Assembly: GCA_026390595.1 (NCBI GenBank)
Contig: JAPLFQ010000027.1
Coordinates: 1-42,494 of the forward strand
Length of the DNA: 42,494 nucleotides
Source of the DNA: Ignavibacteriales bacterium
Lineage (GTDB): Bacteria; Bacteroidota; Ignavibacteria; UBA10030
Direction: 5' to 3'
The translations under genes were made by a program, and so were the position numbers. Each line of letters starts with the position of its first letter. The stretch's first letter is position 1. This document shows, piece after piece, positions 2,595-36,157 of this stretch. The notes under the pieces were generated by a model, which saw only the letters and a program-made list of their open reading frames with translations, had not been told where the DNA came from and did no database searches.

Positions 2595-2680
2595 GCCGGG
2601 ATGGCGGAATTGGTAGACGCACAGGACTTAAAATCCTGTGTCCTGCAAAGGGCGTATGGGTTCGAGTCCCATTCTCGGCA
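2595..2680 (+). tRNA. tRNA-Leu (TAA)
   Basis: A complete class II tRNA. The acceptor stem GCCGGGA pairs with TCTCGGC (one G-U), the anticodon loop CTTAAAA gives UAA, there is a long variable arm, and the T-arm is ATGGG-TTCGAGT-CCCAT. The discriminator is A at 2680 and CCA is not encoded. Broken copies of its 3' end follow downstream. Confidence 0.97.
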
Positions 2681-2834
2681 CAAGCAAGAAGGCGGGTTCT
2701 CGGTTGAAGGCTGATCCGCCTATGGCGGAGAGTCCCGCTCTCGGCCAATCGGTTTCACAAGAGATTACCCGTGGAGGAATCATGAGCGACCCCGAGCGAA
2801 GCGAGGGGGAGTCGAAGGATCCCATTCTCGGCAC
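2667..2834 (+). repeat. 15-bp direct repeat of the tRNA-Leu 3' end
   Basis: The last 14 bases of the tRNA plus one (TCCCATTCTCGGCAC, 2667-2681) occur again exactly at 2820-2834, 153 bases downstream. A third, imperfect copy (GAGTCCCGCTCTCGGC, 2730-2745) lies between. Such repeats of a tRNA 3' end usually mark integration or excision of mobile DNA at the tRNA. No integrase gene is present here, so this is a scar or a very small element. At 2790-2808, inside the repeat interval, the string CCCC-GA-GC-GAA-GC-GA-GGGG can fold as a hairpin with tandem G-A pairs, a REP-like unit. Confidence 0.75.
2700..2729 (+). repeat. 30-base tandem-hairpin insertion in a tRNA-Leu T-loop copy
   Basis: Between GGGTTC (2694-2699) and GAGTCCC (2730-2736), which together would form a T-arm, sits a 30-base segment. 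It consists of two adjacent hairpins, each with a 6-bp stem and 3-base loop: TCGGTT-GAA-GGCTGA and TCCGCC-TAT-GGCGGA. The same design and length occurs at 35532-35561 in the tRNA-Ser copy (22 of 30 bases identical when read in tRNA sense). The first stem here uses three G-U pairs but still folds. Confidence 0.75.
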
Positions 2835-3102
2835 GAACCAGGAGATCCCGAGCGAACTTCTGAGCACCTCATAAGCGAGAGGCGAAGTATCACGCCCTCG
2901 GCTCGAACTTCACCTGGCTTCTTCTTCACTCATCATTCGGTATTCACCGTGGCCCACGCAAGGCATGAACTTGCTCCCGCCTTGAGCATTTCGCATATCG
3001 AATAGTGATCAGGGATTTCAGACTGTCGAATGGAGCGCGAGGGATCGGCAGATCATCACATCCGGTTTGGCTGGAGAGCCTACTATCAGGGTAAAAAGAA
3101 AC
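2746..3102 (+). other. Repeat-rich spacer between tRNA-Leu and the next gene
   Basis: It contains the REP-like hairpin at 2790-2808 and the third tRNA 3'-end copy at 2820-2834. The open frame across the tRNA (2638-2874) reads ERSEGESKDP through the repeat and is not a real gene. Beyond 2835 I see no gene, terminator or convincing promoter. Confidence 0.5.
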
Positions 3103-12090: not shown

Positions 12091-12181
12091 TCTGAATCTC
12101 TCTCGCTTGTTCTTTCTCAACATCAAGACGGTCGGTACTTGATACGAGTTTCCGCACCGTCAGCCGTGATCAAAACTTATT

Positions 12182-12355
12182 AAAGAACCTGACAGTTACT
12201 TTAATAGGGAGCTTGACTCATAAGCGTGGAGCGCACGCCACCTCTTCGCCGCAAGCGGAGATGCCATGCGATGACTCCCGACCTCGTCGGGACGAGCGGG
12301 TAGTGGAAGCGTGAAATGCTTAGGCAGGCACCCACCGTGTTGAATGAGGTTCTTT
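12182..12355 (+). ncRNA. Candidate 6S RNA (ssrS-like) between zapA and rny
   Basis: The intergenic region is closed by a perfect 9-bp long-range stem, AAAGAACCT (12182-12190) with AGGTTCTTT (12347-12355), giving a 174-base RNA. Inside are short hairpins: GCGTG-GAGCG-CACGC (12224-12238), a 7-bp stem TCTTCGC with GCGGAGA (12243-12261, one G-U), and TCCCGAC-CTC-GTCGGGA (12276-12292) near the middle. A closing stem, long weakly paired flanks, about 180 bases of length and a place beside zapA all fit 6S RNA, which binds the sigma-70 RNA polymerase holoenzyme. A run of eight T lies at about 12389-12396. I could not confirm the consensus central bubble. Confidence 0.55.
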
Positions 12356-12421
12356 CAATACACCTTGATCTTCGGCCGACGAGTGCGGTTTTTTTTGCGC
12401 GAGAGTTGACGGAGGAGTTTT

Positions 12422-33732: not shown

Positions 33733-35022
33733 CTACTTGCGCTCCTCTTGAACGCGCAATGTGAGGTTTTCGAATCCTACTATTCTGACCTTTGAATTCG
33801 CTGGAATCTCGCCCGAAACGGAGAGTGCGTTCCAAATCTCTCCGCGGACTCTCACGCGTCCATGCGGATTGAGTGGCGTGATAGCCTCGCCGAACAGGCC
33901 GAGGAGGGCCTCCATTCCTGTCGTCGGTTTCGACTGCAGCGCACGCAGGCCGAATCCTACGACGAACATGAAGAACACGAGTGTCAAGGCAGCGCAGGTA
34001 AGTATGACACTCCAGGAGATCTGAACAAATTCGAGTGCAGAATCCGATCGTATCAGCATCATGGATCCCAGAATGAGTGCGATCAATCCTCCAACCGAGA
34101 GAACGCCGTGGCTGGCGACCTTGAGGTCAGCTACGAACAAAATGATGGCGAAAACGATGAGTGCGAGACCAGCGTAATTTATTGGGAGTGTGTGCAATGA
34201 ATAGAAGGCGAGGATGAGGCTGATTCCTCCAACGACACCGGGCAATACCGAACCGGGATTGTACAGTTCGAATAGAAGCCCATATATGCCGAGCAACATC
34301 AGTACGTATGCGATATTCGGATCGCTCAGGGTGTCAAGCAATCGCTCGGTGAAACTCATCTCCCATTCTTCAATTGACTGGCCTTTGGTGTGCAGTGTTG
34401 TCGGGCCGGAGGGGAGCTCGATTGTTCTTCCGTCGAGAGCCGCCAGCAGGCTGTCCGTGTTCCTGGCAACCAGATCGATGACCCCCATCTTCAGCGCCTC
34501 TGTTTCCGTAATAGAAAGGCTGCGGCGGACTGCTTCTTCAGCCCAGGTGATGTTTCGATGCCGCTTTTCTGCAATGGTTCGTACAAAAGCAGCAGCATCG
34601 TTCGTGGCTTTTTCCATCATCGTTGTGTCCATGCTTCCCTGCAGCGTCACCGGATGGGCGGCCCCGATATTCGTGCCGGGAGCCATGGCTGCAACATGGG
34701 CAGCAAGAGTTATGAACACTCCGGCAGACGCAGATTGCGAGCCGGGAGGGGAGACGAACACGATGATCGGAATTTTCGACTCAAGGATATCACTCACCAT
34801 CGCCCGTGTAGATTTCAGAAGACCGCCGGGGGTATTGAGAAAGATGATGAGACACTGAGCTTGCTTCTCGGTTGCCGATTGGATGCTGCTGTGGAGGTAT
34901 TCCGCCGCGGCGGGATTGATCGTCTTGTCTATTCGGATGGCGACGATCTTCTGTGCAATCGCCGGAACGGTGAGAAATGGAGTGAGAAGAACTAAGAGGG
35001 TCACACTTCGCAGGATCTTCAT
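33733..35022 (-). CDS. nfeD: NfeD family membrane serine protease (ClpP-like)
   Basis: A 429-residue protein with a signal peptide (1-23), a ClpP-class serine protease domain (about 25-215), four or five membrane helices (about 240-370) and a C-terminal OB-fold NfeD domain (about 385-425). The catalytic dyad of the archaeal homologue PH1510 (Ser97, Lys138) corresponds to S99 in SASAG and K138 in MMEKATND. It is the long form of NfeD. It is expected to act on slipin, encoded directly downstream, in membrane quality control. Confidence 0.95.
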
Positions 35023-35153
35023 GGGAGAGCTCCTGACTTGCTCGCTGAAGTGCAGAGAATAGGACCGCGACTAAGGCCGCGGCGATTTACTCTGGGCGAA
35101 AGAACTGCGATGATCTAGCGACTTGTTGTTGAACTGTCAGAGTTCAGTGGTTG

Positions 35154-35240
35154 CGGAGAGAGTGGGATTCGAACCCACGGTACCCTTTCAGGCACACACG
35201 CTTTCCAGGCGTGCCAGTTCAGCCACTCCTGCATCTCTCC
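35154..35240 (-). tRNA. tRNA-Ser (GGA)
   Basis: A complete class II tRNA on the minus strand. The acceptor GGAGAGA pairs with TCTCTCC, the anticodon loop CTGGAAA gives GGA, there is a long variable arm, the T-arm is GTGGG-TTCGAAT-CCCAC and the discriminator is G. Its 5' end is 9 bases after the stop of the GIY-YIG gene, so the two may share a transcript. Its first 70 bases plus one are duplicated at 35562-35632. Confidence 0.97.
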
Positions 35241-35249
35241 GTTGTCTTC

Positions 35250-35510
35250 TTACTTGTTCCTTCGGGCGTATTGGGGGTATTGCACATCCAACCACGCTCT
35301 TCCAACTCCGGTCTTCAGAAAAACTTCACGACGTCGAGCTGAAGACAAGTCAGGAAACTCTTCAATGTGAATCAAGATCCAAGGTATGCCGCCTTTTGTA
35401 AAACGACTTCTTCCTGCGTTGTGTTCATCAAGCCGTTTGGCAGCGTCGACGGCGCTTCCTGCATAGCGCTTCTGTAGGCTTTCACTCCAGAGAACGTAAA
35501 CCTGAACCAT
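35250..35510 (-). CDS. GIY-YIG endonuclease domain protein (UvrC-like small nuclease)
   Basis: An 86-residue stand-alone GIY-YIG nuclease. The GIY part is YVL (5-7), the YIG part YAG (16-18); the catalytic Arg (R26 in KRLDEH), H30 and metal-binding Glu (E63 in RREVFLKTG) are present, so it may be active. The start at 35510 gives the normal N-terminus MVQVYVLWSE; the open frame continues upstream into the duplicated tRNA, which is not coding. It lies between a broken and an intact copy of tRNA-Ser(GGA), as if part of a 391-base element inserted at this tRNA. Confidence 0.9.
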   Translation of the reverse strand: MVQVYVLWSESLQKRYAGSAVDAAKRLDEHNAGRSRFTKGGIPWILIHIEEFPDLSSARRREVFLKTGVGRAWLDVQYPQYARRNK

Positions 35511-35531
35511 AGGCAAGTAATGATGGGATTC

Positions 35532-35561
35532 TCCGCCGGAGGCGGATGCGCCTTCGGCGCA
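35532..35561 (-). repeat. 30-base tandem-hairpin insertion in the tRNA-Ser T-loop copy
   Basis: Read on the minus strand, two adjacent perfect hairpins with 6-bp stems and 3-base loops, TGCGCC-GAA-GGCGCA and TCCGCC-TCC-GGCGGA, lie directly after the GGGTTC at the end of the tRNA fragment. They are followed by GAGAATCCCA, whose GAATCCCA matches the tRNA-Ser T-arm continuation. The same architecture is at 2700-2729. Confidence 0.85.
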
Positions 35562-35632
35562 GAACCCACGGTACCCTTTCAGGCACACACGCTTTCCAGG
35601 CGTGCCAGTTCAGCCACTCCTGCATCTCTCCG
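35562..35632 (-). pseudogene. Truncated tRNA-Ser(GGA) copy (5' 70 bases)
   Basis: This segment is an exact 71-base copy of 35171-35241: one leader base and tRNA-Ser nucleotides 1-70, ending in the T-loop after GGGTTC. The 3' half of the T-arm and the acceptor strand are missing, so it cannot make a working tRNA. The repeat period is 391 bases and encloses the hairpins and the GIY-YIG gene. Confidence 0.95.
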
Positions 35633-36157
35633 ATGAATGCTGATGGTGCGGTTTCGGTGGTTCTTGCCTAGTCCAGGCTCATCCAGAAACTACAAACCTC
35701 TCACGAATCTACAACTGAAACAATAATAGCAAAAGATGGCTGAAAATGCAAAGGACTTCGATCGTGAGACAAGCTTTTCTACGAAATTAACACTGAGAGT
35801 GGAGTGGGAAGAATGTTGTACACGCTCATTTCGAACGAAGTCGGAACATTCTGGCAGCCGAGGAGTAGCAGCATGTTTGAAGTCGGTTTGAATACCAGTT
35901 GCGAAGCATCATGTTCACTGCGAGTCTGTGGAAGTGGGGAGGGGGTGTCCGGAAAGCGGATGTGGTGCTTCCCGCATGACCAATCGAATCCCGTCAGTGA
36001 TCAACTCCTCGAAGAATTGTGGCGGGCAATCTCCGGCCTGGGAGAATAGCGGCGGAGGAACGCGTGAGGAGACGAAGCAGCCGGTAGGGATCGTCACAAC
36101 GAAGTCGACCGAGAGCTCTGGCCGGCTTCCAAAACGCTTTTTTTGATGTTCGCTCGT
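35633..36157 (+). other. Intergenic stretch with no supported gene
   Basis: Short open frames exist on both strands (for example 35804-36049), but none resembles a known protein or has a ribosome site. The region should hold the promoter of the minus-strand tRNA-Ser fragment/GIY-YIG/tRNA unit. I see no clear repeat or RNA in it. Confidence 0.4.

Follow-up and report, generated by a model that had tools for sequence, protein, structure and literature searches.

Small GIY-YIG nuclease genes between intact and partial tRNA genes point to a widespread family of minimal selfish elements in bacteria

Mobile nuclease genes have been described that act on tRNA genes or restore the gene that they enter. 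In phages T4 and T6, the free-standing GIY-YIG homing endonuclease SegB cuts within tRNA genes (PMC13096335; PMC2988022). The available section of one of these accounts places the SegB motif RAWTSGAAC (reverse complement GTTCSAWTY) at 23/83 sites, states that in T6 the tandem amplification of a tRNA together with segB itself needs SegB activity and that the donor allele is usually a poor substrate for free-standing GIY-YIG enzymes, and reports no tRNA isotype preference for SegB (PMC13096335). In fungal mitochondria, mobile open reading frames (ORFs) carry a replacement gene end, as described for atp6, atp9, cox2, and nad3, and in the part of the account that was available one of these cases is a GIY-YIG gene (PMC3630166). 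Sponge mitochondria harbour repetitive and double hairpin elements in RNA genes, which the available part of their description presents as short, often arranged in tandem pairs, and composed of conserved stems and variable loops (PMC2800124). Bacterial GIY-YIG genes accompanied by tRNA fragments are undescribed in the full texts searched, a coverage outside which most subscription papers and all preprints fall. Here, we describe such a locus and its relatives; as far as found, their parts have precedents in SegB, fungal mobile ORFs, and hairpin elements, while the combination has none.

The locus lies in a stretch of 42,494 nucleotides from an Ignavibacteriales bacterium (GenBank assembly GCA_026390595.1, contig JAPLFQ010000027.1, positions 1-42,494), called the window below. 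Read on the minus strand, nucleotides 1-70 of tRNA-Ser(GGA) are followed by a 30-nt double hairpin, nucleotides 71-78 of the tRNA, a short leader, a GIY-YIG gene of 86 aa, a gap of 9 nt after its stop codon, and the intact tRNA-Ser(GGA) (Table 1). The initial annotation had reported an exact 71-base repeat of this tRNA, a 391-base unit, two hairpins, and the 86-residue gene at 9 bases from the intact tRNA, and all of these features are present: the direct repeat (35171-35241 and 35562-35632, spacing 391) begins 1 base upstream of tRNA nucleotide 1, and its length excludes a chance origin. The same annotation let the partial tRNA end in the T-loop, which is incorrect, since the double hairpin is an interruption that splits the tRNA between GGGTTC and GAATCCC, with a further 8 nt of tRNA sequence beyond it (35524-35531). 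The nuclease gene is probably under the control of the tRNA promoter, because the sequence preceding the fragment looks, by eye, like that directly upstream of the tRNA in relatives free of the element. The next gene downstream of the intact tRNA (33733-35022, minus strand) is taken to encode an NfeD-like protein. An assembly artefact is unlikely, because two loci from two other genera (L072 and L077) share this architecture at tRNA-Ser(GGA) and tandem arrays of similar units exist in single-contig genomes. In a further locus from the genus of the window (L093), the nuclease gene and the intact tRNA are present and the contig stops before the position of the fragment.

Table 1. Features of the tRNA-Ser(GGA) locus, with positions counted from the first letter of the window.
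Feature	Coordinates	Strand	Remark
Intact tRNA-Ser(GGA)	35153..35240	-	
5' fragment of tRNA-Ser(GGA), nt 1-70	35562..35631	-	No difference from intact copy
First 15-nt hairpin of the double hairpin interrupting the T-loop	35547..35561	-	
Second 15-nt hairpin of the double hairpin	35532..35546	-	Pattern recurs: 15 matches in own genome, backwards control 0
tRNA sequence GAATCCCA (nt 71-78, 8 nt) after the hairpins	35524..35531	-	Divergent beyond
GIY-YIG nuclease gene, 86 aa	35250..35510 (stop included)	-	PF01541
Presumed tRNA promoter upstream of the fragment	35700..35760 (approximate)	-	By-eye likeness to tRNA upstream stretch in empty sites

The window protein matches PF01541 with an E-value of 4.1e-10 and 40.2 bits against a curated cut-off of 22.6, as scored on the longer open frame. 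In an alignment of 63 relatives, Y5, Y16, G18, R26, H30, A58, E62, and K66 are invariant, among them Y5, Y16, G18, R26, H30, and E62, which we take to be the catalytic residues of GIY-YIG nucleases. The protein is under purifying selection, with dN/dS values of 0.05-0.41 in 10 of 13 pairs and saturated dS in the remaining 3. Its closest solved relatives are UPF0213 proteins (1ywl, 1zg2) and SLX1 chains, and these single-domain UPF0213 proteins and SLX1 are like the nuclease of the elements across the whole domain. No tRNA link is known to us for UPF0213 or SLX1, and the low-scoring GIY-YIG genes of the same genomes have none. The intron endonuclease model TIGR01453 is weakly matched by 15 of the 63 proteins and not by the window protein. 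A group I intron is rejected, since neither the window nor 20 loci contain an intron family that reaches the Rfam gathering score, and so is an integrase-type element at a tRNA attachment site, because the 391-nt unit has room only for the 86-aa GIY-YIG gene. Phage origin or phage carriage is not supported: a search of viral contigs for close relatives yielded none for the window protein or for the protein of locus L026, and the latter has four weak matches among phage records, all below 60% identity.

The PF01541 profile finds nine matches in the genome of the window and matches in all 41 genomes examined. The first 38 loci include ten, all from one subfamily, in which a tRNA stands next to the gene on the same strand. 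A first profile built from 11 sequences, ten of them tRNA-linked, was used on 32 genomes of the family, and a broader one, from the alignment of 63 sequences, on the 296 genomes of the phylum sample, of which 109 contain a subfamily match at E<=1e-20. For counting, six repeat loci and domain matches covering fewer than 46 profile positions were dropped and identical sequences were merged; array units were counted singly unless identical, so that the counts are not fully independent. Of the 147 subfamily members thus retained (matches of at least 70 bits, 204 loci), 107 have an intact tRNA gene within 250 nt, on the same strand in every case (107/107); when at least 300 nt are known on both sides, the proportion is 95/124. 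The link fades with the score, to 2/8 at 60-70 bits and 0/23 at 20-60 bits, the latter comprising three truncated pieces of the subfamily (L097, L118, and L153) and 20 other GIY-YIG genes. Since the seed had been chosen partly by tRNA proximity, the members of the own family and order were recounted without the 11 seed loci, and 47/56 are near a tRNA. In a test set of phylum loci absent from profile building (best matches of L155-L184, 23 after merging), 19 of the 21 with flanks are near a tRNA, all on the same strand. The targets comprise twelve amino acids and 25 anticodon types. The window locus is thus one case of a widespread pattern at many tRNA genes in many bacteria, and like segB, as described in the section available, the free-standing GIY-YIG gene adjoins tRNA genes (107/147). 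The alternative picture raised at the outset, of GIY-YIG genes distant from tRNAs and lacking partial tRNA copies or of a unique artefact, is not what this subfamily presents.

Many of the 40 members that lie more than 250 nt from any detected tRNA are at contig ends or are extra array units, and those viewed are mostly array units, contig ends, or N-masked stretches; no other structured RNA stands alongside members without a tRNA at the gathering score. Four loci (L075, L082, L170, and L192) contain a GIY-YIG lineage without tRNA whose protein ends in KNYLT and which, by eye, has CCCCGTGAGAT repeats around or near it; in L075 these are inverted on both sides. This lineage is perhaps a sister element with a different target. 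A scan of named genomes found five relatives elsewhere (Levyibacteriota, Phaeodactylibacter, Levybacteria, Bacteroidetes, and Armatimonadetes), all five with a close tRNA on the same strand. In their whole genomes, 13 of 29 matches are near a tRNA, all on the same strand, and 7 have a far-side fragment, so that the tRNA link in other phyla is looser than in the main sample; contamination of metagenome-assembled genomes (MAGs) may be behind these matches.

Beyond the nuclease gene, on the side away from the intact tRNA, a fragment of that tRNA is present in 89 of 97 testable members, compared with 0/97 for reverse-complemented and 0/97 for shuffled tRNAs, which bears out the earlier expectation that related genomes also pair the nuclease gene with partial tRNA copies. 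The fragment is found in 43/45 members with the tRNA downstream and in 46/52 with the tRNA upstream, and it is polar: 37/45 fragment sets hold the 5' end of the tRNA when the tRNA is downstream of the nuclease gene, and 43/49 hold the 3' end when it is upstream. Ungapped fragments are identical to the neighbouring intact tRNA at 3044 of 3082 nt, and 110 of 137 are perfect. The proposal that a duplicated 5' part restores the intact tRNA fits the window locus, but about half of the cases rebuild the other side with a 3' fragment, as the intact tRNA is upstream in 56 and downstream in 51 of the 107 members. As in the fungal mobile ORFs, in so far as their available description goes, an endonuclease gene stands in an essential gene with a duplicated part that restores it and the native part left behind, here as an intact tRNA with a far-side fragment (89/97). 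Unlike in the fungal ORFs of that description, which concern protein genes, carry a foreign and diverged part, and provide 3' parts only, the gene here is a tRNA, both sides occur, and the carried part gives no sign of foreign origin, being nearly identical to the local tRNA (3044/3082 nt).

Partial tRNAs also shape how these loci are read. The proteins thought at first to join a tRNA-derived N-terminus to a GIY-YIG domain have a counterpart in stop-to-stop frames, where the layout alone produces the join, so that these frames are not evidence for fused proteins. At the other end, the nuclease frame of four loci (L019, L034, L028, and L068) extends into the downstream tRNA gene and stops at a TAG inside it. 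Elsewhere in the window (2595-2836), tRNA-Leu(TAA) is followed by two remnants of its own 3' end without a GIY-YIG gene between them, the first directly preceded by a TCCGCCTATGGCGGA hairpin (2715-2729); these remnants may be left from an element that has since been lost.

Of the 93 loci that have a strong fragment, 80 show two tRNA segments separated by an interruption of 8-75 nt. The interruption nearest the nuclease gene, classified for 78 loci on the tree described below, falls in the D zone in 28, the T zone in 25, the anticodon zone in 24, and the V zone in 1. Among 37 exact interruptions, in which no tRNA base is lost or doubled, 15 are directly after GTTC, and 9 of these 15 lie between GTTC and SAWTY. 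The T-loop, earlier regarded as the break point, therefore does recur but is one of several points. On the tRNA strand, the SegB motif of the section available is the T-loop sequence GTTCSAWTY, as at these nine interruptions. This match is suggestive only, because GTTC is present in 106/107 intact tRNAs, and the section does not give the SegB cut position relative to the motif; owing to the same frequency of GTTC, the T-loop cases alone are no proof of specificity. Four complementary bases at the insert ends occur in 9/37 inserts versus 12/1850 controls, and a strict GC-rich hairpin in 40/91 pseudo-tRNA regions versus 7/527 control windows. With 51/91 regions lacking a strict hairpin, the hairpin is not upheld as an obligatory part of the element; a laxer test (one mismatch allowed, stem of at least 6) finds one in 86/94, but its controls score high as well (425/564).

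Where hairpins of L007, L072, and L077 are compared by eye, stems agree and loops vary, with paired stem changes in L077. In tandem pairing, stem conservation, and variable loops, the double hairpins resemble the sponge mitochondrial ones as far as these are described in the available text (PMC2800124); unlike them, they are bacterial and interrupt tRNA fragments at exact points, next to a nuclease gene. Hairpins are also found away from tRNA genes. The matches of the pattern TCCGCCNNNGGCGGA in the genome of the window (Table 1) fall at ten sites, two of which are tRNA fragments of the window. In L207, L209, and L211, 30-nt double hairpins are inserted exactly and in frame between the NPF and N codons of three genes (between TTC and AAT) and add ten residues, for example SAGGGSAYGG. 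Because of these ten sites and the three insertions among them, hairpin pairs are also dispersed mini-elements, some of which have a T-loop-like target. Within a predicted 6S RNA of the window (12158-12382), positions 12276-12292 form a TCCCGACCTCGTCGGGA hairpin, which the genome matches at one other place.

A tree of 105 proteins (105 of 107 rows) has few columns and many unresolved forks. The amino acid of the tRNA requires 23 changes on this tree versus a shuffled mean of 65.9, and none of 200 shuffles is as low. The side of the intact tRNA requires 27 changes (shuffled mean 35.1, lowest of 60 shuffles 31), and the interruption zone, which is only partly lineage-bound, requires 25 (shuffled 37.8, lowest 30). 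These counts indicate that a lineage keeps its tRNA and switches side and, less often, the interruption point. Six species of the window genus have differing sets of tRNA targets among the fetched loci. The elements depart from SegB as the available section describes it: they reside in bacterial chromosomes, encode a protein of about 85 aa consisting of the nuclease domain only, form tRNA-specific lineages, and have polar partial tRNA copies and hairpin interruptions (PMC13096335).

The initial annotation had proposed a comparison of strains with empty and filled sites, and empty sites exist within the genus of the window. Two species (L121 and L122) contain an identical 88-nt tRNA-Ser(GGA), and their 3-kb loci have no GIY-YIG match and no fragment near the tRNA; in L122, a single match of 16 nt lies at a distance of 1.4 kb. 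A third species (L125), with a 94% tRNA and a shorter locus, likewise has no GIY-YIG match or fragment near the tRNA. The intact tRNA-Ser(GGA) retains the presumed target and is identical (88/88) in filled and empty genomes, so that the donor is not protected by its sequence, and a resistant tRNA as an escape from self-cutting is rejected for Ser(GGA). A related lineage is present at tRNA-Ser(GGA) in several genera, apparently at the same locus, as judged by gene context. Tandem arrays of fragment and nuclease gene occur, also in single-contig genomes, and the intact tRNA is single in the arrays viewed; tandem amplification of a nuclease gene and a tRNA is a further likeness to SegB in the section available. 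The single-contig genome of L185 has five GIY-YIG matches at 450-nt spacing, each accompanied by a CCTGCCTGCCGTCAGGCAGG hairpin and by a fragment that looks like the 3' end of a tRNA. The contig of the window opens with a truncated tRNA match (1-51), and several GIY-YIG matches of relatives are at contig ends; assemblies may break at tRNA arrays.

We consider it rather probable that these loci are minimal selfish elements based on a free-standing, homing-type GIY-YIG endonuclease, with every lineage dedicated to a single kind of tRNA gene; in their manner they would be related to phage SegB, which provides a tested parallel. Next to the observed layout, polarity, recurrence, tRNA specificity of lineages, conserved catalytic residues, purifying selection, and presence and absence within the genus, cleavage and mobility are what we infer. 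The nuclease would break a tRNA gene at a loop-encoding sequence, in the window that of the T-loop (between GGTTC and GAATCC), and repair from an element-carrying copy would insert the nuclease gene and a second stretch of tRNA. The layout is the one expected from such repair, as one side regains a whole tRNA: an intact tRNA would be rebuilt on one side and a truncated one left on the other. A hairpin pair in the fragment, at the presumed break point, would render it uncuttable, and the fragment could then act as an arm of homology. If the intact copy were cut and the fragment used for its repair, units would be added and tandem arrays generated. A wider version is possible, though less likely than not: a home-and-rescue drive, in which families of tRNA-matched elements of less than 400 nt break a tRNA gene, supply or reconstruct an intact tRNA, and protect the fragment by a hairpin pair at the cut point, and in which the same nucleases seed hairpin pairs at T-loop-like sites elsewhere in the genome, including in frame in protein genes.

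Other explanations start from parts of the same evidence. The nuclease could be a structure-specific enzyme, similar to UPF0213 or Slx1, that acts on hairpins or cruciforms, with the hairpin pairs as the true mobile units, mobilised in trans and in cis, and tRNA loops merely resembling the target. Its best solved relatives, the double hairpins at ten sites of the own genome with three exact in-frame 30-nt insertions between NPF and N, and interruptions mostly in the D, anticodon, or T zones all agree with this, but it does not explain by itself the duplicated tRNA part, the polarity, and the tRNA-specific lineages, and many fragments lack a strict hairpin, which makes it unlikely. It is improbable that the loci are without present mobility and represent old tandem tRNA duplications, with a passenger nuclease gene on the tRNA promoter and with truncation and hairpins as later decay. 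As in tandem duplication, the fragments are local and nearly identical to the neighbouring tRNA, and the tRNA-Ser(GGA) lineage persists at what appears to be one locus in several genera; against this stand the different tRNA sets of six species of one genus among the fetched loci, the empty sites, the recurrent exact interruption points, the polarity rule, and the purifying selection on the protein. A benefit of tRNA dosage to host or element, in which the nuclease would drive tandem amplification of its tRNA neighbour against tRNA-cutting toxins or defences, could appeal to the existence of arrays and to the precedent of SegB in the available section (PMC13096335), but is very improbable given that the viewed arrays repeat tRNA fragments with a single intact tRNA, so that dosage is not raised. 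Toxins that cut tRNA often attack loops, and the GIY-YIG protein Slx1 acts on DNA. That the protein is such a toxin, directed at tRNA as RNA, with the fragments as decoys, is hardly credible even though the interruption points match loops, as interruptions would spoil a decoy and the GIY-YIG enzyme SegB acts on DNA in the section available (PMC13096335).

Genes for tRNAs are essential and strongly conserved and are therefore ideal targets for selfish elements, provided that gene function is kept. The loci described here point to a family of very small selfish elements, widespread among bacteria, that invade essential tRNA genes and yet spare them. If this is true, the elements keep the tRNA working with a tiny unit and one protein of 85 aa, in many bacterial genomes (109/296 of the phylum sample), and their nucleases and targets are naturally matched sets in which the origin of specificity in GIY-YIG enzymes can be studied. 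They would also account for many of the odd tRNA fragments and wrongly called reading frames found next to tRNA genes, and they may provide compact tRNA-specific nucleases.
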